Assembly: GCF_010122465.1 (NCBI RefSeq) | Contig: NZ_WLZY01000003.1 | Span: forward strand, 124,001 to 188,000 | DNA: 64,000 nucleotides | Direction: 5' to 3' | DNA from: Phytoactinopolyspora mesophila | GTDB lineage: Bacteria; Actinomycetota; Actinomycetes; Jiangellales; Jiangellaceae | Part shown: one piece after another, positions 48,410-57,824 of the stretch | Layout of the letters: the number at the start of each line of letters is the position of its first letter | Position numbering within the stretch: position 1 is the stretch's first letter | Position numbers and translations under genes: made by a program | Notes under the pieces: generated by a model | Database searches by the model: none | What the model was told of the DNA's origin: nothing | What the model saw: the letters and a program-made list of their open reading frames with translations, nothing else

Positions 48410-48763
48410 CTAACGAAGCGAGCGGCCGGGGCGGATCTCCTTGATCCAGTACTTACGCGCCATGGCGTCGACGTCCTCCTGCGTCACGTTGCGCAGGTGC
48501 AGCACGTTGTCCGTGGTGCCCTGGACCCGGCCGTACGCCTGGAGTTCGAGCATGTGGAAACGCTCGGGCGGAAACCCGAGTACGACGTCGACGGTGAACG
48601 TACCGCGGCGGTCGAGCTCCTCACCCACACCGTCGGCGACCTTGCTCATCGCAGTGACCCCGATCCAGACCTGGTAGGCGAGGATGAGCACGATCAGCAT
48701 GGCGAGCGTCCGCCCGCCGATGGTGCTCAGGACCTTACGCAGGATCCAGGTCAGCCGGGACAC
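48410..48763 (-). CDS. Small membrane-anchored hypothetical protein
   Basis: About 117 residues with one hydrophobic segment (TLAMLIVLILAYQVWIGV, near residue 20) and a C-terminal soluble part rich in charged residues, including GFPPERFHMLELQAYGRV. No family recognised. GTG 48763 has GGAG nine bases upstream; ATG 48772 directly abuts that GGAG. Its start lies inside the 3' end of the ABC ATPase gene, so it is the last member of the importer operon and may serve it. Confidence 0.65.
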   Translation of the reverse strand: MSRLTWILRKVLSTIGGRTLAMLIVLILAYQVWIGVTAMSKVADGVGEELDRRGTFTVDVVLGFPPERFHMLELQAYGRVQGTTDNVLHLRNVTQEDVDAMARKYWIKEIRPGRSLR

Positions 48764-49532
48764 CGGGCTCATCTCCTGCCAGCAGATCGGTGAGATAGGT
48801 GACCGTGTGCCGGAATTCCTGGCTGTCCAGCACTGACCGCCAGGTCCGCGGCCGCTCGAGCGGAACGGTGACGATCTCCCTCACCTGACTCGGGCGGGCG
48901 CCGAGCACGACGACCTTGTCGGCCAGGAAGACAGCCTCGTCGACGTCGTGAGTAACGAAGAAGACCGTGGGCCGTTTCGTCTCGAAGATGCCGGTGAGCT
49001 CCTCCTGGAGTTTGCGGCGGGTCTGGGCGTCGACGCTGGCGAACGGCTCGTCCATCAGCATCACTTCGGGTTCGTTCGCCAGCACCCGGGCGACGCCGAG
49101 GCGTTGCTGCATGCCGCCGGAAAGCTCGTGCGGAAACTTGCGCTCGAACCCTTCCAACCCGACCAGCTCGAGATACTGCTGCGCGATGGGTTCACGTTCG
49201 TGCCGTGGGACTCCACGCATCCGCAGCCCGAAGAGGACGTTGCCCATGACGGTTTTCCAGGGGAACAGCGCAAAGCTCTGGAATACGACGCCGCGTTCGG
49301 GGGACGGGCCGTCAACCGGCTTGCCCGCGACATGCACCGTTCCGCTGGTCTGTTTGTCGAACCCCGCCACGATGTTGAGCACGGTGGTCTTGCCGCAGCC
49401 GCTGGGGCCGAGCACCGAGATGAACTCGCCCTGTTCAACGCTGAAAGTGACGTCGCCGACAGCTACGACGGATTCGCCGGTGTAGGAGTCGACGAACTCT
49501 TTGTGCAGGTTGTTGATTTCCAGTGTGCTCAT
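48735..49532 (-). CDS. ABC transporter ATP-binding protein, nitrate/sulfonate/taurine type
   Basis: A 265-residue SsuB/TauB-like ATPase. Walker A is GPSGCGKTT, the Q-loop VVFQSFALFPWKTV, the signature LSGGMQQRLGVARVL and Walker B VMLMDEPFASVD. ATG 49532 has GGAGG seven bases upstream and overlaps the stop of the permease gene; the longer frame to 49622 lies inside that gene. It drives the importer with the two permeases and the lipoprotein upstream. Confidence 0.93.
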   Translation of the reverse strand: MSTLEINNLHKEFVDSYTGESVVAVGDVTFSVEQGEFISVLGPSGCGKTTVLNIVAGFDKQTSGTVHVAGKPVDGPSPERGVVFQSFALFPWKTVMGNVLFGLRMRGVPRHEREPIAQQYLELVGLEGFERKFPHELSGGMQQRLGVARVLANEPEVMLMDEPFASVDAQTRRKLQEELTGIFETKRPTVFFVTHDVDEAVFLADKVVVLGARPSQVREIVTVPLERPRTWRSVLDSQEFRHTVTYLTDLLAGDEPGVPADLDPA

Positions 49533-50365
49533 CGAGCCACCTCCGCGGTGCGTACCATGCCCCAGCGTTCGACGGTGCTCCGCTCGAAAGGTGCGAGGAC
49601 CAGCGCGTCGAGCGCAAACCACAGCACACCGAGCACAATCATACCGACGAACACGGGGGTCACCTCGCCAGCACGGCGAGCATCGAACATCATGAACCCG
49701 ATACCACTGGTGCCGATGATGATCTCAGCGGCGATCAGTGCCCGCCAGCCGTATCCCAGGCCGGTCCGGATGCCGGTGGCCACGGCTGGCAGGGCTCCGG
49801 GCACGATCACATCGGTAAAGACCCGGAACCGGCCGGCGCCAAGGCTGCGGGCCGCCCGGACCACGTCTCGCGGCACCTGCTCCACGCCGGCGACGATGCT
49901 GATCATCAACGGGAAGACGATGGTGTAGACGATGACGAACGTGACCGCGGTGAGGCTGAATCCGAACCACACGATCACGATGGGCAGCCAGGCGATGTCG
50001 GCGATGGCCTGGAAGAAGAGCAGCAGAGGCCAGGTGAGCCTGCGCGCCCAGAACGACATCGCCACGATGAACCCTGCCGGGATTCCGATGAGCAGGCCGA
50101 ACACCACACCGGTCCACAATCTGGTCATCGAGTCGGACAGGTAAGCCGGGAGGATTCCCTTGCGGATCATCTCCGAGAACTCGTCGATGACGGCATCCGG
50201 CCCGACGAAGAAAGCGGGCGGGAACACTTCCATCTCGGCTACGATCCACCAGAGCACCACCACCGGCACGAAAGGCCCTAGGGTGCGCACGAGCCGGTTC
50301 CGGCCGAGCCGGCCCATCCAGAGGCGAGTGTGGTGCACCCGCGGGCCCGTCTGCGTGTCCAGCAT
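49529..50365 (-). CDS. ABC transporter permease, nitrate/sulfonate/taurine type (second)
   Basis: A 278-residue BPD_transp_1 permease with about six membrane segments. The EAA-like coupling loop is ARSLGAGRFRVFTDVIVPGALP near residue 175. It is clearly related to the other permease of the operon, including the shared C-terminus FERSTVERWGM versus LERRTVERWGM. This indicates an old duplication giving a heterodimeric pore. Its start directly follows the previous stop and its own stop overlaps the ATPase start. Confidence 0.92.
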   Translation of the reverse strand: MLDTQTGPRVHHTRLWMGRLGRNRLVRTLGPFVPVVVLWWIVAEMEVFPPAFFVGPDAVIDEFSEMIRKGILPAYLSDSMTRLWTGVVFGLLIGIPAGFIVAMSFWARRLTWPLLLFFQAIADIAWLPIVIVWFGFSLTAVTFVIVYTIVFPLMISIVAGVEQVPRDVVRAARSLGAGRFRVFTDVIVPGALPAVATGIRTGLGYGWRALIAAEIIIGTSGIGFMMFDARRAGEVTPVFVGMIVLGVLWFALDALVLAPFERSTVERWGMVRTAEVAR

Positions 50366-51184
50366 CTATGCCGTCACCGCCTTCATGCCCCAGCGCTCCA
50401 CCGTTCGTCGTTCGAGCGGCGCGAGCAGAGCTCTGTCGGTGACCAGCCAGAGAACGCCGATGATGACCATGTTGGCGACGATGATGTCGGTGCGATAGAA
50501 GCGCTGCGCGAGAAAGATCGAGTACCCCAGCCCCGCTCCGGTCGCGATGATCTCGGCGGCGATCAGGCCACGCCAGCCGTAGCCGAGTCCCACCCGCAGG
50601 CCGGTCACGATGCTCGGCAACGCACCGGGCACCAGGACTTCGGTGAACATCCGAGCACGCGGGGTTCCCATGCTGCGCGCCGCTCGGAGCAATTGGGTAG
50701 GGATCTGCTGGACGCCGAGCATTGCGTTGTAAGTCAATGCGAAGAAGATCGCGTTCCAGACGATGAAGATGACCGCTCGTTCCCCCAGGCCCAGCCACAG
50801 CGTGGCCAGCGGGATCCAAGCGATACCCGCAAGCGCGACGGAGAACCGCAACAGCGGTGAGAAGAACGCCGCCGCCCAGCGGTTGGAACCGAGCAGGATG
50901 CCGAAAGGGATCGCGGTGATGACCGCGACAACGACACCGATGCCGATGCGCCGCAGGCTCGCTCCGAGGTGAGTGAACAGCTCACCTGTGTTCCACAGGT
51001 CGACGAACGCCGCGACAACATCCGTGACCTGCGGGAACGTTCGGCGCTCTACACCCGACACCTCCACGGCGATGAACCACACCGCGGCCAGGAGGACGAA
51101 CGGGACGACGAACCAAAAGGCCGACGCCAGTCGCTGTTGTAAACGAGTACCCCGGCGACTGACGGCCGTCGATGACACCACCAC
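50366..51184 (-). CDS. ABC transporter permease, nitrate/sulfonate/taurine type (first)
   Basis: A 272-residue permease with six predicted membrane segments and the EAA-like loop ARSMGTPRARMFTEVLVPGALP near residue 168. Three consecutive GTG codons (51184, 51181, 51178) could start it; the longest is given. The gap to the upstream binding-protein gene is 148 bases and contains a stable hairpin, which may lower permease expression relative to the binding protein. Confidence 0.92.
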   Translation of the reverse strand: MVVSSTAVSRRGTRLQQRLASAFWFVVPFVLLAAVWFIAVEVSGVERRTFPQVTDVVAAFVDLWNTGELFTHLGASLRRIGIGVVVAVITAIPFGILLGSNRWAAAFFSPLLRFSVALAGIAWIPLATLWLGLGERAVIFIVWNAIFFALTYNAMLGVQQIPTQLLRAARSMGTPRARMFTEVLVPGALPSIVTGLRVGLGYGWRGLIAAEIIATGAGLGYSIFLAQRFYRTDIIVANMVIIGVLWLVTDRALLAPLERRTVERWGMKAVTA

Positions 51185-51268
51185 GAGCCTTCAAACCTCC
51201 CGCCGGCAATTCTGGTCTCGAGGGCGCCATTGCCCAACCTGCTCGACCATGCAAGTAGCGCCCTGAGG

Positions 51269-51307
51269 AGGTCACGAGGTCCGGTGAAAGCCGGAGCCTC
51301 GTGACCT
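51269..51307 (-). terminator. Intercistronic hairpin after the binding-protein gene
   Basis: AGGTCACGAGGTCCGG (51269-51284) pairs with CCGGAGCCTCGTGACCT (51291-51307) with one bulged base and a 6-base loop. It lies 25 bases beyond the binding-protein stop. Such hairpins often let the binding protein be made in excess over the permeases. Confidence 0.75.
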
Positions 51308-51332
51308 CAGATGCCGGGCTGAACCAGCCGGC

Positions 51333-52541
51333 TCAGCCTTCGGGGCAGGCGCTCTGAGCTTCGCCGCGCTCGAAGACATAGTCGGCCGAGATCTGCGCTT
51401 CTTCCGGGATCTCCGGCAGGTCGTCGAACAGCTCCGGGTGCTGTTCCATGACGTTGAGGATCGGCCCGGGAACGAAGTGGTCGTTGACGTCGTACGTGCC
51501 GTCGACAACCTCCATGTCGGCGAACACACCCATCATCGTGTCGAGTGCGAGGTAGTTGCAGGCCGAGAACCGGGGATCGAGCTGAATGATGTTGTACTCC
51601 ATCGCCTCCTCGGCCACCTCGATCTCGGTACCCGGGACCCATCGGACGGTGACGTCGGCGGCATCATCCGGGTTCTCGCGCATCCAGTGATCGGCGGCCG
51701 CCCGGGCCGTCAGCAGCGCCTCGACCGTGTCCGGGTTCTCCTCCACATACTCACGCGTGGAGACGATGTAGCCGATGTAAGCGATGTAGCCACCGCCACG
51801 AACCACTTCGAAAGCGCCGTCGACAGAGTGCGTCGTCACGATCGGCCACGGGTCCCAGATCACAGCCGCGTCGAGACCATCGGTCTCCAGCGCGACCGGC
51901 ATCTCAGGCGGCGGCGTGTTCTGGATGTCGACGTCGTCCGGCGAGAGGCCGGCTTCCTCGAGGACACCGAGTAGGTACAGATGGTTGATCGAACCGATCG
52001 AGACGCCGATACGCTTGCCGGCCAGCGTGGAGAGGTCATCGGGGTCGATGCCGGATTCGGAACTGGCCACCATCGCCATCGTCTCGTCGATGCCGAGCTG
52101 GCTCGAGCTACCCGAGTAGTTGCCCAGGTACACGAGGTCCATGCCCTCGAGCACGGCACCGATACTCGGCGTACCGACCTGGACGAAGTCGACCTCGCCG
52201 GCGTCGAGCGCGTTGAGCGCGTCGACACCCGTGGGGAACGGCTGCGCTAGTTCGACGTCAAGGTCGACGTCGTCATAGAAGCCGAGATCGAGTGCGATCG
52301 CCGCCCCCATCTGGTCAACGGCCGAGACATACCCCAGCGTCACCTCGGTCAGCTCGGCAAGATCGTCGAGGTCCGCGCCCTCATCCTCGTCCTCGTCGTC
52401 ATCGCCATCTTCGTCGACTTCGCCTGCATCAGGACCCTGCGCCGCAGAATCGTCGCCATCGTCATCGGATCCGCAGGCAACCAGCAACGCAAGCGCCGCC
52501 CCACCAGCGAGAACCATCCGTAACCGCGAGGAACGGAACAC
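51333..52541 (-). CDS. Substrate-binding lipoprotein of the nitrate/sulfonate/taurine-type importer
   Basis: A 402-residue NMT1/TauA-like binding lipoprotein. The lipobox is LLVAC near residue 23, followed by an Asp/Glu-rich linker of about 40 residues. The domain has LDLGFYDDVDLDVELAQPF, VDFVQVGTPS and a later AAVIWDPWPIVTTH, typical of this class. GTG 52541 is preceded by GGGAGGG; an ATG at 52577 has no ribosome-binding site. The ligand is not readable from sequence: sulfonates, nitrate, thiamine precursors and riboflavin are all known for related systems. Confidence 0.9.
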   Translation of the reverse strand: MFRSSRLRMVLAGGAALALLVACGSDDDGDDSAAQGPDAGEVDEDGDDDEDEDEGADLDDLAELTEVTLGYVSAVDQMGAAIALDLGFYDDVDLDVELAQPFPTGVDALNALDAGEVDFVQVGTPSIGAVLEGMDLVYLGNYSGSSSQLGIDETMAMVASSESGIDPDDLSTLAGKRIGVSIGSINHLYLLGVLEEAGLSPDDVDIQNTPPPEMPVALETDGLDAAVIWDPWPIVTTHSVDGAFEVVRGGGYIAYIGYIVSTREYVEENPDTVEALLTARAAADHWMRENPDDAADVTVRWVPGTEIEVAEEAMEYNIIQLDPRFSACNYLALDTMMGVFADMEVVDGTYDVNDHFVPGPILNVMEQHPELFDDLPEIPEEAQISADYVFERGEAQSACPEG

Positions 52542-53103
52542 GTACCCTCCCTTGTTCGCAAATGTCAGCCAGAGCATTTAGAACGTGCACAAATGTCTGA
52601 ATTTTGACCAGAATCCATGACACTAGGAGCGCCTCCATGCCGTGTCAACCACCTGGCCAGCCCTTGAACCCCCTCCGCCTCGCCTCGCATTTCGCCCCCG
52701 CCGACAGCCCTAACCGTCGCGCCCACAGTCCAGCACACCAACATCAAGCAAGATCGCCCGGGTGCGGACAAAAGCCACGGCGGATCGGGCGTCCGGCCGA
52801 TCGTCAACATACTTTCGGCTCGAAACACTAGCCATTCGGACCGCCTGAACGGTAGGTTTCTCTGCGGCACTCTTGCCGATGGCAAGCCGATTTGTCATAG
52901 TGTGTCCGGCAAAAGAGACCTCTCGCCGGAAGCTGGCGAGAACAAGGCCGGTGGACAACCAAGTCTGAGCTGGCGGGGGGCTCGATGCGAGGCATCGGGT
53001 GGAGTTGTGGCTGCACGGCCAGGCGGACGTTGGCTGATCGGGCTGGCCTACCAGCACCCGCTGGTGGGTCCACAACCAAGGGGCTACCAGTAGGGAACTG
53101 AAT
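52542..53103. other. Intergenic region upstream of the MHYT-conservon operon
   Basis: A 562-base gap between divergent operons without a supported gene. A possible promoter for the MHYT gene is TTGCCG (52874-52879) with CATAGT (52896-52901), 16 bases apart; the -35 lies in a small palindrome CTTGCC-GAT-GGCAAG (52872-52886). A hairpin TCTCGCC/GGCGAGA follows at 52921-52941. The remaining leader of about 160 bases is rich in short hairpins but matches no riboswitch I know. Confidence 0.4.
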
Positions 53104-53889
53104 GTGGAGCACCTGCACCACTTCTTTCAGTACGGGCCGATAACCGCCGTTGTCGCCTATGTCATGGCGTGTGTGGGGGCGGGGCTCGGGCTGCGCTGTA
53201 TCGTCCGGGCGTTCGCTACGACCGGCCTGGCCAAACAGCGCTGGCTGCTGATCGGCGCGCTCGCCATCGGGTCCGGTATCTGGACCATGCATCTCGTCGC
53301 CATCCTCGGCTTCGGCGTCGACGGCTCGCCGGTGCGGTATGACGTGTCGCTCACGCTGCTGAGTTTGGTGGTCGCCATCTTGCTCGTCGCGGCCGGAGTC
53401 TTTGCTCTCGGCTACAGCAGCTCACGTGTGCGCGGAGCAGTCCTGGGTGGCATCGGGACCGGCGCGGGCATCGTCGGCATGCACTACGTCGGCATGTCGG
53501 CGATGGAAATCCACGGCACCCTGAGCTACGAAATCCCCACCGTCGTCCTGTCCGCTGCCATCGCAGTGGGCGTCGCGATGGCAGCACTAGCCGTCGCCTT
53601 CCTGACCGACAGCTTCCGCGGCACGGTCCTCGCGGCCCTCCTGATGGGTGCTGCGGCCAGCGCAACCGAGTACGCCGGGATTGCCGCGTTACGGCTCGAC
53701 ATCACTCCGGGCACTTCGGTCCTCCCCGGAGCGAGCGCCGTCGAGTTCGTCTTCCCGTTCATCGTTGTGTTCGGTTCATTCCTGTTCCTCAGCTCGGCAT
53801 TCGTCGCCCTGTCACCCATCAGGCACGAACCAGTTGCGGCCGCCACAGCTACGGCCGCGCCGAGCAGAGATTCCAATCTAGCGAGCTGA
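53104..53889 (+). CDS. MHYT-domain integral membrane sensor
   Basis: A 261-residue protein with about seven membrane segments. MHYT motifs are WTMHLVAILGF near residue 61 and GMHYVGMSAM near residue 126. The expected third motif reads TEYAGIAAL, losing its Met-His pair. MHYT domains are proposed to sense oxygen, NO or CO through a bound metal, probably copper. No GGDEF, EAL or kinase domain is attached. The gene ends 14 bases before cvnA, so it probably forms the input part of the operon. GTG 53104 is the start. Confidence 0.85.
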   Translation: MEHLHHFFQYGPITAVVAYVMACVGAGLGLRCIVRAFATTGLAKQRWLLIGALAIGSGIWTMHLVAILGFGVDGSPVRYDVSLTLLSLVVAILLVAAGVFALGYSSSRVRGAVLGGIGTGAGIVGMHYVGMSAMEIHGTLSYEIPTVVLSAAIAVGVAMAALAVAFLTDSFRGTVLAALLMGAAASATEYAGIAALRLDITPGTSVLPGASAVEFVFPFIVVFGSFLFLSSAFVALSPIRHEPVAAATATAAPSRDSNLAS

Positions 53890-53903
53890 TCGAGGCAAAA
53901 GAC

Positions 53904-56390
53904 ATGCGTGAACGCCAGGATGACGCGCGCGAGCGGCAAAACGGTAACGGTGAAGTGACCAGCGACGATCCACACACGGACACCGGGCCGGTCAACGTAC
54001 ACGAGGAGGACGACGACTCCGCACCCCGTTCCGGCCCACGGCACGCCTCCCGCCGAGCGGCGGCGGCCAGGAGTAGGGCAAGTAGTGGCCGCCGTCCCCG
54101 GTCCGTCCGCGCGAAGATCGTCACCGTCCTCATGGTGCCCGTGATGTCGCTGATGGCCCTATGGGGCTTCGCCACGGTCACCACCGCCCAGAACGTGTCT
54201 GAGCTTCAGCAGCTCAAAGAGGTCAACGACACCCTCCTCACCCCGATCAACGACTTCGTCGCCGCCGTGCAGAACGAGCGAGTGGCGGCTTCGGAGTACA
54301 TGGCCGCACCTGACGCCGAACCGGATGCGCTCCTCGCCGCGGGGGAAGCCACCGACGCCGCTGTGGCCGCGCTACGGGATGGCATCGCCAACAGCAGCAC
54401 CGACGCCGCCGGGCTCGACCCCCGGCTTCCTGGACGAATCGAAGGGCTCGTCGCCGCGGCCGACTCCCTCTCCGGCATCCGGGACCGCGTTGCCGAACAG
54501 AGCACCAGCTGGCTGGCCATGTTCGACGCCTACACGGCGACTGTCAGCGAAGCGTTCGGCGTCACGGGTGTGCTCACCCAGATGGATGCGCCGGGTGTGG
54601 AGTTCGACCCGCGCGTCGTACTAGAGCTCTCTATGGCGCGGGAGATGATCTCTCGCGAGGATGCCGTCATGAGCGCCGCGTACGCGGCCGAGGTGATGAC
54701 ACAGTCGCAGTATCTGACCTTGGTCGAGGCTGCCCAGGCCGGTCAGTCCATGCTCTGGACCGACATCGACGACCCGCGACCCTCGGCCGAAGCCGCGTAC
54801 CGGGACGTCCTGACCAGCCGGTCCTATCAGTTCCTCCGTGATCTCGAGGCCGATCTGACCAGCGGGCGAGCCGGCTACACGATTGTCGGCGCGGTCCCGG
54901 CCGACGCATGGAGCGAGGCTGCCGGCTCGGTCCAGCAGGAACTTGCCGCGGGTGAAGCACGTGTGACCACCATCGCGGCTGAAGAGGCCAGTCTCTTCAG
55001 CTTCGACGTCCTCGGCACCACAGGTGTGGCCGTCGTGCTCGGTCTGATCGGTGTCATCCTCTCGTTGTTGATATCGGTGCTGATCGGCCGTGGCCTCGTC
55101 GTCGAACTTGCCGGCCTGCACAACTCCGCCATGGACCTGGCCCGCCGCAAACTCCCGGCGACCTTGCGCAAGCTGAACTCCGGCGAGAACGTCGACATCG
55201 ACACAGAAGCTCCACAGGTTGCCCTGGGCGACGACGAAGTCAGCCAGGTGGCGGAGGCTCTCAACGCCGTTCACCGTTCCGCGGTGCAAGCCGCGATCGA
55301 GCGCTCCGATGTGCTCAAGGGCATCTCCGGCGTCTACGTGTACCTCGCGCGTCGGAGCCAGGTCCTGCTGCACCGGCAGCTCGCGCTGCTCGACAGCATG
55401 GAGCGCCGAATCGAGGACCCGGACCAGCTGGAAGACCTGTTCCGCCTCGACCACCTGACCACCCGCATGCGTCGCCAAGCCGAGAGTCTGATCATTCTCT
55501 CCGGGGTGCCGCCGGCCCGTCGCTGGCGGAACCCGGTCCCCATGATGGACGTCGTGCGTGGCGCCGTGGCCGAGGTCGAGGACTTCACCCGTGTCGAGGT
55601 CGCGAACATCCCGGACGTCCGGATCTCGGGCACCGCGGTCGCGGACTTGACCCATCTGATCGCCGAACTGGTGGAGAACGCGGTGGTCTTCTCGCCGCCC
55701 CACACCAAGGCTGTCGTCCGCGGCGAAGTAGTCGGCACCGGCCTAGCGCTCGAGGTCGAAGACCGTGGTCTCGGCATGAGCCAGCAGGCGATGGCCGATG
55801 CCAACCGCCGGATCCGGGATACCGACCAGGTGGACCTCCTCGAAGCCGACCAGCTCGGCCTATTCGTGGTCAACCGGCTGTCGCGCCGTCATAATGTTGA
55901 GGTGACGCTGCAGCGCTCGGCCTACGGAGGCGTCACTGCCATCGTTTTGATCCCGGACGCCCTGCTCGATCGGACCATGACGGAGCAGATACCGCCTCCA
56001 GAGCCGGCACCCGACCTGGAAAGGGCCCAGTTGACTGCTGTCGGATCGCTGTCCGCCGTCCCCGATCCGCGGTCGGGCCCGGCGACCGAACCCGGGTTGC
56101 AGGCCGTTCGCGAAACCGCCAAGGCTCTTACCGGACAGACGTCTCGCGAGGACGCGGCACCCCAGGACGCCGAGGTCGATGACCTCCCACGCAGGGTCCG
56201 TCGCGCCAGTCTCCGTCCAGAGCTCCGGAGCGATCCCCCGCCCCCGCCACCCAGCACGCCGTCGCCGAGCGAAAACCCGACCCGGACACCCGATCAGGCA
56301 CGCGCCACCTTGTCTGCGCTGCGTAACGGGTGGCTCCGAGGGCAATCCGAGAAACAAGACGAGTCGCCGCAAGAGGGAGAGAACCGATGA
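53904..56390 (+). CDS. cvnA: Conservon sensor histidine-kinase-like protein CvnA
   Basis: An 828-residue membrane protein. An Arg-rich N-terminus leads to the first membrane segment near residue 75, an extracellular nitrate/nitrite-sensing-like helical domain (about 95-370), a second membrane segment near 375-395, a HAMP-like linker and an ATPase domain (about 530-690). The N-box ELVENAVVFSPP and the G-box DRGLGM are clear. FRLDHLTTRMRRQAE may be the dimerisation helix with a His. The last 140 residues are disordered and Pro-rich. In Streptomyces conservons CvnA works with CvnB-D in a GPCR-like complex. It overlaps cvnB (ATGA). Confidence 0.93.
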   Translation: MRERQDDARERQNGNGEVTSDDPHTDTGPVNVHEEDDDSAPRSGPRHASRRAAAARSRASSGRRPRSVRAKIVTVLMVPVMSLMALWGFATVTTAQNVSELQQLKEVNDTLLTPINDFVAAVQNERVAASEYMAAPDAEPDALLAAGEATDAAVAALRDGIANSSTDAAGLDPRLPGRIEGLVAAADSLSGIRDRVAEQSTSWLAMFDAYTATVSEAFGVTGVLTQMDAPGVEFDPRVVLELSMAREMISREDAVMSAAYAAEVMTQSQYLTLVEAAQAGQSMLWTDIDDPRPSAEAAYRDVLTSRSYQFLRDLEADLTSGRAGYTIVGAVPADAWSEAAGSVQQELAAGEARVTTIAAEEASLFSFDVLGTTGVAVVLGLIGVILSLLISVLIGRGLVVELAGLHNSAMDLARRKLPATLRKLNSGENVDIDTEAPQVALGDDEVSQVAEALNAVHRSAVQAAIERSDVLKGISGVYVYLARRSQVLLHRQLALLDSMERRIEDPDQLEDLFRLDHLTTRMRRQAESLIILSGVPPARRWRNPVPMMDVVRGAVAEVEDFTRVEVANIPDVRISGTAVADLTHLIAELVENAVVFSPPHTKAVVRGEVVGTGLALEVEDRGLGMSQQAMADANRRIRDTDQVDLLEADQLGLFVVNRLSRRHNVEVTLQRSAYGGVTAIVLIPDALLDRTMTEQIPPPEPAPDLERAQLTAVGSLSAVPDPRSGPATEPGLQAVRETAKALTGQTSREDAAPQDAEVDDLPRRVRRASLRPELRSDPPPPPPSTPSPSENPTRTPDQARATLSALRNGWLRGQSEKQDESPQEGENR

Positions 56391-56815
56391 CCGAGCCCAC
56401 CCACATGTCGGGCGAGCTCAACTGGCTGCTCGATGATCTAGTTGGTCGCGTAGCCCAGATCCGGCATGCAGTCGTGCTTTCGGGCGACGGCCTGCCGGTC
56501 GGCGCCTCGAATCAACTAAGCCGGGAAGACCGCGAACGCTTCGCCGCCATAGCCTCGGGATTCCACAGCCTCGCCAAAGGCACTGGGATGCATTTCGAGG
56601 CCGGAGGCGTTGTCCAGACCATGGTGGAGCTGGAGGGTGGCTTCCTTTTTGTCGTCGCCGCCGGCGACCGCTCCTGCCTGTCAGTGTTCAGTGAGGCCGA
56701 CGCTGACATCGGTCTCATCGCCTACGAGATGGCGAGGCTGGTGAAACAAGTCCATGAGCACCTCTACGTACCGACCCGGCCAGATCAACTGGATCCCGCA
56801 GCCGCACCGAAGTGA
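56387..56815 (+). CDS. cvnB: Conservon roadblock/LC7 protein CvnB
   Basis: A 142-residue roadblock/LC7-fold protein, the family that regulates small GTPases of the MglA type. ELNWLLDDLVGRVAQIRHAV near residue 10 is the first helix, LSGDGLPVGAS the following strand turn, and FLFVVAAGDRSCLSV near residue 88 the central strands. It starts in an ATGA overlap with cvnA and precedes cvnC by nine bases. Expected to act on the CvnD GTPase. Confidence 0.94.
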   Translation: MTEPTHMSGELNWLLDDLVGRVAQIRHAVVLSGDGLPVGASNQLSREDRERFAAIASGFHSLAKGTGMHFEAGGVVQTMVELEGGFLFVVAAGDRSCLSVFSEADADIGLIAYEMARLVKQVHEHLYVPTRPDQLDPAAAPK

Positions 56816-56824
56816 TGCGCGCCG

Positions 56825-57196
56825 ATGAGTGACACAAGCCCACACTGGTACGACGACGACGCGGGGCCGATCGTCCGGCTGTTCGCAGTAACTGCGGGCC
56901 GGGCCAGGAGCACCACTGAGTCGTTCGATCTGATGGCAACTGTGCACGTGGCGTCGTCGGCACCATACGACCCCTCGCTCTCACCGGAACAGCAGCTCAT
57001 CATGCGCATCTGCAGGCGGTATCCACAGACCATCACCGATGTCGCATCCGAATCGAACTTGCCGCTCGGTGTGGTGCGGGTTTTGCTCGGAGATCTCTTG
57101 AACTCCGGCCATGTCCAGATCACGCCACCAGCTCCGCACCGAATCCCTGACAGCAATATTCTCAAGGAAGTCATCGATGGCCTCCGTGCACTCTAA
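56825..57196 (+). CDS. cvnC: Conservon DUF742 protein CvnC
   Basis: A 123-residue DUF742 protein. The N-terminal IVRLFAVTAGRARSTTESFD and the winged-helix-like ITDVASESNLPLGVVRVLLG are the family blocks, and it ends RIPDSNILKEVIDGLRAL. It has no known enzymatic activity and is the third element of the conservon. The 3' end overlaps cvnD by 20 bases. Confidence 0.94.
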   Translation: MSDTSPHWYDDDAGPIVRLFAVTAGRARSTTESFDLMATVHVASSAPYDPSLSPEQQLIMRICRRYPQTITDVASESNLPLGVVRVLLGDLLNSGHVQITPPAPHRIPDSNILKEVIDGLRAL

Positions 57197-57824
57197 ATCC
57201 GTTCCCGACGGCGTCCAGCCCCTCGTGGCCCTCAAGATCCTCGTCGCCGGGGGATTCGGCGTGGGTAAAACCACGCTGGTCGGCTCCGTCAGCGAGATCC
57301 GCGCCCTGCATACCGAGGAAGCACTCACTGGAGCAGGACAGGTCGTCGACAACACCAACGGCGTCGAACGCAAGACCACCACCACGGTCGCGATGGACTT
57401 CGGCAGGATCACCATCCGCGACGGATTGTGCCTCTACCTGTTCGGGACGCCAGGACAGGACCGCTTCTGGTTCATGTGGGACGAACTCGCCATGGGCGCT
57501 CTCGGAGCCGTGGTCCTCGCCGATACCCGCCGCCTCGAGGACTGCTTCCCGGCGGTCGACTACTTCGAGCACCGGGGGTTGCCGTTTGTCGTGGGTGTCA
57601 ACCATTTCGAGGGTTCCCGTCATTACAACCCCGAGAAGGTGAGCAAAGCCCTGGACCTCGACGACAGGACTCCGGTGGTCATGTGCGACGCCCGCGACCG
57701 CGAGTCCGGCAAGAACGTCCTCATCAAGCTCGTCGAGCACGTGAGCGAGCTCCGAAACGCGAAGGCTGAACCTGAGCCTGCCACCTCGTCGAACGGACTG
57801 CCCCGACGCCCGGTCAAGCACTGA
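57177..57824 (+). CDS. cvnD: Conservon GTPase CvnD
   Basis: A 215-residue Ras-like/ATP-GTP-binding protein. The P-loop is GGFGVGKTT near residue 25, the switch region ERKTTTTVAMDFG near 65, and FGTPGQDRFWFMWDE near 90 is the G3 region. The G4 position reads VGVNHFEG rather than the usual NKxD, as in other conservon GTPases. It is the output component of cvnABCD; no cytochrome P450 gene follows here, unlike some conservons. Confidence 0.94.
   Translation: MASVHSKSVPDGVQPLVALKILVAGGFGVGKTTLVGSVSEIRALHTEEALTGAGQVVDNTNGVERKTTTTVAMDFGRITIRDGLCLYLFGTPGQDRFWFMWDELAMGALGAVVLADTRRLEDCFPAVDYFEHRGLPFVVGVNHFEGSRHYNPEKVSKALDLDDRTPVVMCDARDRESGKNVLIKLVEHVSELRNAKAEPEPATSSNGLPRRPVKH

Follow-up and report, generated by a model that had tools for sequence, protein, structure and literature searches.

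The locus studied here raises the question of whether a stand-alone membrane protein of the MHYT family, encoded directly before a conservon, belongs to that system and supplies its input. It lies in a window of 64,000 nucleotides from Phytoactinopolyspora mesophila, by which we mean the whole stretch of DNA analyzed. The preliminary description placed a stand-alone MHYT gene 14 bases 5′ of cvnA in a complete cvnABCD set, and open reading frames together with Pfam matches bear this out:

53104-53889, + strand: MHYT gene, GTG start, 261 aa (Pfam PF03707, 97.1 bits, E 5.9e-28)
53904-56390, + strand: cvnA, ATG start (Pfam NIT, 97.6 bits; HATPase_c, 41.5 bits)
56387-56815, + strand: cvnB, roadblock/LC7 protein of MglB type (Pfam Robl_LC7, E 1.4e-23)
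56825-57196, + strand: cvnC (Pfam DUF742, E 1.7e-31)
57177-57824, + strand: cvnD, Ras-like small GTPase (Pfam PF03029, ATP_bind_1, E 1.3e-33)

A HATPase cvnA, a roadblock cvnB, a DUF742 cvnC and a Ras-like cvnD follow one another in the order that defines a conservon (AGPS), and the CvnA tail carries the motif LPRRVRRAS (residues 761-769 by alignment), of the LPxR type described for CvnA C-termini in the part of PMC4316618 used here. Core genes, order, domains and tail are the same as in known conservons; the locus differs in having a membrane MHYT gene as a fifth member before cvnA. The overlaps attributed to the conservon genes exist between cvnA and cvnB (4 bases) and between cvnC and cvnD (20 bases), while cvnB and cvnC are separated by a 9-base gap. 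In the 14 bases between MHYT and cvnA, GAGG at 53892-53895 precedes the cvnA ATG. CvnA has two transmembrane helices flanking an extracytoplasmic NIT domain, followed by a histidine-kinase-like core. The genome encodes one MHYT protein and two conservons, both with a NIT-type CvnA, and no MHYT was found within the 18 kb read around the second conservon. On the 5′ side of the MHYT operon, frame reading places divergent ABC-transporter genes (48735-52577, minus strand: an ATPase, two permease-like frames and a binding protein), and the binding-protein (SBP) gene keeps its place beside the operon in six genomes.

The MHYT protein and its motifs

The window's MHYT protein scores 97.1 bits against a Pfam gathering score of 21, and MHYT is its sole Pfam domain, with no fused output domain in the Pfam scan. 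An AlphaFold2 model built from 41 sequences (mean pLDDT 80.9; 61-70 for the other four models) predicts seven long helices (residues 11-37, 41-68, 81-103, 108-132, 144-168, 171-195 and 212-236), consistent with the approximately seven transmembrane helices of the family. No convincing solved relative was found by sequence (the best match, at E 0.0077, was a ribosomal protein), and fold comparison gave no match at E ≤0.001. The three motif positions, assigned from alignments, lie near the ends of helices 2, 4 and 6 of the model:

53287-53298, + strand: motif 1, MHLV, residues 62-65 (Met-His kept, Leu in place of Tyr/Phe)
53479-53490, + strand: motif 2, MHYV, residues 126-129 (Met-His kept)
53665-53676, + strand: motif 3, TEYA, residues 188-191 (Met and His lost)

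The three-motif Met/His/Tyr pattern of PF03707 is incomplete, with Leu in motif 1 and TEYA in motif 3. The loss of Met-His from the third motif had been pointed out before and is confirmed by the reading T188-E189-Y190-A191. One-off decay was considered and rejected as an explanation, as Glu replaces His in 6/6 genomes of the window's lineage. As judged from these alignments, the metal ligand set is altered throughout this lineage, and gas or metal sensing by the window's MHYT is a putative, unproven property that it would have inherited from its family.

Conservation of the pairing

The preliminary description held that a lack of conservation in related genomes would speak against the pairing, and surveying the neighborhoods gave the opposite result, with conservation well beyond the genus. 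Among 60 genomes of relatives, the window's own included, 22 contained MHYT, and 20 regions around MHYT places were read. MHYT-cvnABCD in the window's order was present in all four further genomes of the genus (4/4), in one from a sister genus and in genome G039, which belongs to another family. The unlinked regions comprised 10 places in genus g3 of the window's own family (two of them on contigs of only ~5 kb) plus four others. One of these g3 genes (L040, genome G010) adjoins a hydantoinase A/B gene and a CoA-transferase gene.

Within the window's family (f1), a window-type CvnA, 72-83% identical to the window's, occurred in 6/6 genomes with a linked MHYT, the window's included, and in 0/8 other members searched among the 16 others seen in the survey. 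Those eight carry other conservon CvnAs, 28-37% identical, and five of the eight have an unlinked MHYT. This joint presence and absence argues that MHYT and the window-type conservon were gained and lost together.

The genus of G039 is taken as Streptomyces because the G039 protein is as much as 90% identical to those of named loci. When named genomes were scanned with the G039 protein, conservon genes lay directly 3′ of MHYT in 80/80 of the best 80 of 428 relatives, which are orthologues chosen by similarity and not random MHYT genes; 77 of these 80 were titled Streptomyces. Among them, 76 had cvnA, B, C and D, three were cut by contig ends, and at L127 a cvnA missed in the first search was matched in a later one. 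In the genus of G039, 112 of 199 genomes had an MHYT at least 70% identical over at least 246 residues, and all eight loci read from these 112 were linked to a conservon. Matches to cvnA that overlapped MHYT were ignored in some rows of this genus and of the class-wide sample, because the query, a stop-to-stop frame, was too long. Of the 80 named loci (L054-L133; best 80 of 428 relatives), 73 carry a further roadblock gene, cvnB', 3′ of the conservon; at L054 it is Robl_LC7 by Pfam, with an opposite-strand frame between cvnD and cvnB'. Locus L242 (genome G520) is a broken copy with a partial MHYT, a cvnD remnant and a roadblock gene only.

A class-wide sample put these figures in proportion. 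MHYT was found in 113/393 genomes, and 40 chosen regions gave 5 linked and 35 unlinked, with three of the 40 cut by contig ends. With 35/40 regions unlinked, linkage to a conservon is a trait of particular lines and not of MHYT in general. The same sample does not sustain the view that MHYT normally comes with an output domain of its own: many of its places are open frames of ~255-300 aa, so that a stand-alone MHYT is not unusual.

Two arrangements and at least two origins

Adjacency of MHYT and conservon recurs in two arrangements and three families. One of the five linked regions of the class-wide sample had the reverse arrangement, cvnABCD followed by MHYT. In its family, f4, 19/81 genomes had MHYT, and in 17 of the 19 it lay directly after a conservon; the exceptions are G338 (two places, ~6 kb read on each side) and G409 (~1.1 kb read before and <0.5 kb after). 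Three f4 genomes have a tandem MHYT pair 3′ of cvnD. MHYT is kept in f4 genome G463, where no cvnD was found, and in G444, where cvnC is gone and cvnD is reduced to a stub. An MHYT frame at L253:5266-6135 begins with a CvnD-like stub (DFGRIT...LFGT), left behind when cvnC and most of cvnD were lost. Across the whole survey, L260 gave no match, and weak MHYT places (E 1e-4 to 1e-3) and G039's second MHYT place were read in part. A NIT domain was detected in 0/16 of the f4 (type II) CvnAs by scan.

The genus of G039 also has a second MHYT form, 64-68% identical and present in 17 genomes, with a further member in G473 at 67%. Eight of its loci were read: one had the full set, and seven had MHYT and cvnA only, with cvnB, C and D absent from at least 2.9 kb read after cvnA. 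NIT was present in 6/6 CvnAs scanned from these seven. The seven loci indicate that the constant partner of MHYT is the kinase CvnA and not the GTPase. The earlier proposal that the output is the conservon GTPase system therefore stands in part: it fits the operon in the window, but the GTPase is missing from the seven MHYT-cvnA loci and from two f4 loci.

Trees of MHYT (124 rows, 122 different; duplicates L161/L202 and L162/L199, leaving 62 distinct unlinked proteins) and of the CvnA kinase core (74 rows) were made by a short search with SH-aLRT support, with the groups defined in advance from gene order. MHYT-less CvnAs were sampled from 19 regions; L164, whose match was too short, was dropped from the MHYT tree, and L224 was left out of alignment A6. 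The 36 upstream-type CvnAs (types I and III) grouped together (support 96), with the 22 MHYT-less CvnAs outside, and the 16 downstream-type (type II) CvnAs formed a separate branch (support 87). Types I and III also formed a branch in the MHYT tree (support 86), and both trees had the same inner split, with the window's lineage, the MHYT-cvnA-only loci, L228, L235 and L236 on one side and the remaining Streptomyces on the other. A single clade of all linked rows was rejected by the AU test for CvnA (p 2.2e-5) and for MHYT (p 3.7e-6), the latter helped by three unlinked proteins (L196, L218 and L244) inside the f4 MHYT clade, in trees that contain long branches. Chance neighborhood is rejected by the recurrence in two arrangements and by these tests; the MHYT-conservon pairing is genuine and arose at least twice, and its conservation reaches past the genus.

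A probable role of MHYT beside CvnA

Ahead of the MHYT gene lies one candidate promoter:

52873-52910, + strand: promoter-like element, TTGCCG (52873-52878), 17 bases, CATAGT (52896-52901), overlapping an invariant 21-base block (52890-52910)

The two hexamers were read by eye and are absent from the output of a consensus promoter scan, which found no site before MHYT or before cvnA and a single one, near chance level, inside cvnA. The 21-base block is identical in 6/6 operon-bearing genomes, one copy each; no copy was found in three genomes of the family without the operon, allowing up to 3 mismatches, nor with a reversed-pattern control. Between MHYT and cvnA, conservation in the window's lineage covers the gene ends and GAGG only. 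Other conserved blocks precede MHYT in the Streptomyces loci. The gaps between MHYT and cvnA in the named loci, by homologous starts, had a median of 61 bases (range -17 to 361) in the 71/80 measured, with more than 150 bases in 10 of these 71 (best 80 of 428 relatives). Co-transcription of MHYT and cvnA is likely from this layout, and a second promoter is possible where the gap is long, as in G003 (173 bases).

The search for a contact surface was exploratory. We looked for MHYT residues that are fixed in 40 linked rows but that two unlinked sister groups (10 and 9 rows) do not share, and one helix stood out:

53737-53817, + strand: MHYT helix 7, residues 212-238, with F217, V221, S225, F228, A232 and L236 on one face

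The permutation p for this face was 0.002-0.043 over six thresholds, which were set after looking at the data. A control test on residues that set the unlinked g3 MHYTs apart also picked out a single face, here on helix 3 (p 0.017); helix 7 showed no such face (p 0.97). For CvnA, 24 linked and 21 unlinked proteins were compared, with L102 and L160 left out. The comparison gave 29 linked-specific positions. Four share a face of the second helix (p 0.02-0.03), and the others include 8 linker positions, 11/270 outside the membrane and 2/220 in the catalytic core, where a low share is expected because the core is conserved in all CvnAs. A contact between MHYT helix 7 and CvnA helix 2 is a prediction only, and the two faces show clade-specific conservation, which could reflect plain shared ancestry.

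MHYT is a conserved neighbor of these conservons, and probably a member of their operon and an input to them. In the reading that we favor, with a probability of about 0.68, it is a dedicated membrane partner and co-sensor of CvnA, in one operon with the conservon. Its ligand residues would sit on the outer membrane-facing ends of the helices, close to the extracytoplasmic NIT domain of CvnA, and ligand binding would shift MHYT; in the proven member of the family the ligand is copper with a diatomic gas. The change would then travel along the membrane helices, perhaps by MHYT helix 7 acting on the second CvnA helix, and reach the linker, which sets kinase activity; from the CvnA kinase it would go on by way of CvnB/CvnC to the GTPase CvnD. 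In this scheme we infer the co-transcription, the physical contact and its helices, and the direction of the signal. Two points count against a co-sensor: with a NIT domain of its own, CvnA does not strictly require a further sensor, and other conservons in the same genomes do without MHYT.

MHYT might instead act downstream, as an output or effector of CvnD, in the way that MfpA, the product of an extra gene beside the mycobacterial mfp conservon, interacts with the GTP-bound GTPase and with gyrase (PMC4316618, in the part cited). The f4 MHYT does lie directly 3′ of cvnD, the position that MfpA has after the mfp conservon in the same account. However, MHYT is still found with CvnA where cvnD has been lost (the seven loci and G463) or reduced to a stub (G444), and in the window's arrangement it is the first gene; it differs from MfpA in pairing with the kinase gene. 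The loci without cvnD disfavor an effector role, which we regard as unlikely. We give about the same small weight to MHYT as a co-expressed accessory that senses nothing itself and serves the assembly, stability or cofactor supply of CvnA. Such a role would suit the loss of ligand His in 6/6 of the window's lineage and at least one in 8/20 linked f4 proteins (all three in four of these), against 0/62 distinct unlinked MHYTs, a contrast suggesting that the fold is more important than the metal site. Yet the unlinked proteins outside f4 are mainly the highest-scoring places and so biased to intact motifs, and within f4 alone the contrast (8/20 linked against 0/11 unlinked, with L196, L197 and L218 of the latter read only ~1 kb on each side and places listed to E 0.001) has p 0.016 among related rows. 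All three His are also kept in 34/34 linked type I and III proteins of the tree set outside the window's lineage (G039's genus and named loci), and the third in 80/80 named loci (best 80 of 428 relatives). At L243, L245 and L246 of f4, the MHYT adjoining cvnD is without two or three His and the second tandem MHYT keeps three.

Least probable of all, and very improbable, is that the genes were merely co-inherited without any functional link. Conservation in genera g1 and g2 extends to the SBP and nagZ genes on the flanks, so synteny there counts as one event. Those flanks had no matches in the named loci, however, and the reverse order of f4, its separate origin, the mostly short gaps and the joint presence and absence all weigh against bare co-inheritance.

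A co-sensor of CvnA has parallels among accessory proteins of conservons. In the portion of PMC13343842 drawn on here, two types are described, GAF (CvnF) and P450 (CvnE), both reported with CvnAs without a sensory domain, and CvnF8 binds CvnA8 and raises its autophosphorylation (PMC13343842, 2026). The window's MHYT resembles them as a fifth gene tied to a CvnA, and genomic evidence supports its assignment as a putative modulator of the cognate CvnA. In contrast to CvnE and CvnF, which follow cvnD in that portion of PMC13343842, it is a seven-helix membrane protein encoded before a NIT-bearing CvnA. Pfam found neither a GAF nor a P450 domain in it, only MHYT. An extracytoplasmic NIT was present in all 25 CvnAs of types I and III that were scanned, counting the window's (19 + 6 scans; the single NIT-less member of the first set is the f4 protein L160). 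MHYT 5′ of a NIT-bearing CvnA is a third accessory type, against the reported sensor-less pattern.

Among MHYT proteins the closest comparison is CoxC, a fused MHYT protein with copper-dependent CO sensing (PMC11347149); its introduction also mentions single-domain MHYT proteins. With CoxC and other fused MHYTs as presented in the cited part of that paper, the window's protein shares the membrane domain with motifs at the outer face. It differs in being without a fused output, the neighboring kinase and GTPase being the likely output, and in the Glu of motif 3. The literature searched, which left most subscription papers outside, held no report of an MHYT-conservon pairing. The word MHYT is absent from the main texts of PMC13343842, PMC8510531 and PMC4316618, and MHYT with Streptomyces returned only a paper that by its title concerns a Pantoea diguanylate cyclase. 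The sensory inputs of conservons are called largely unexplored in the consulted part of PMC13343842. MHYT, from a family with a proven ligand (CO and copper in CoxC), offers a concrete, testable one.

More speculatively, a seven-helix MHYT receptor may have been coupled to a conservon kinase at least twice through helix-helix contact, several lineages having since outgrown the metal site to become receptors for something other than copper and gas; we consider this possible but rather doubtful. If true, a seven-helix receptor would signal to a kinase and the kinase to a Ras-like G protein, a chain broadly resembling a GPCR and its G protein with a kinase between them. Natural MHYT-cvnA pairs without the GTPase would let the kinase input be studied alone. 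A secreted-type amidase gene lies beside such pairs, before or after them, at L223 and L226 (Amidase_2 by Pfam) and at L227 and L229 (by a similar N-terminus).
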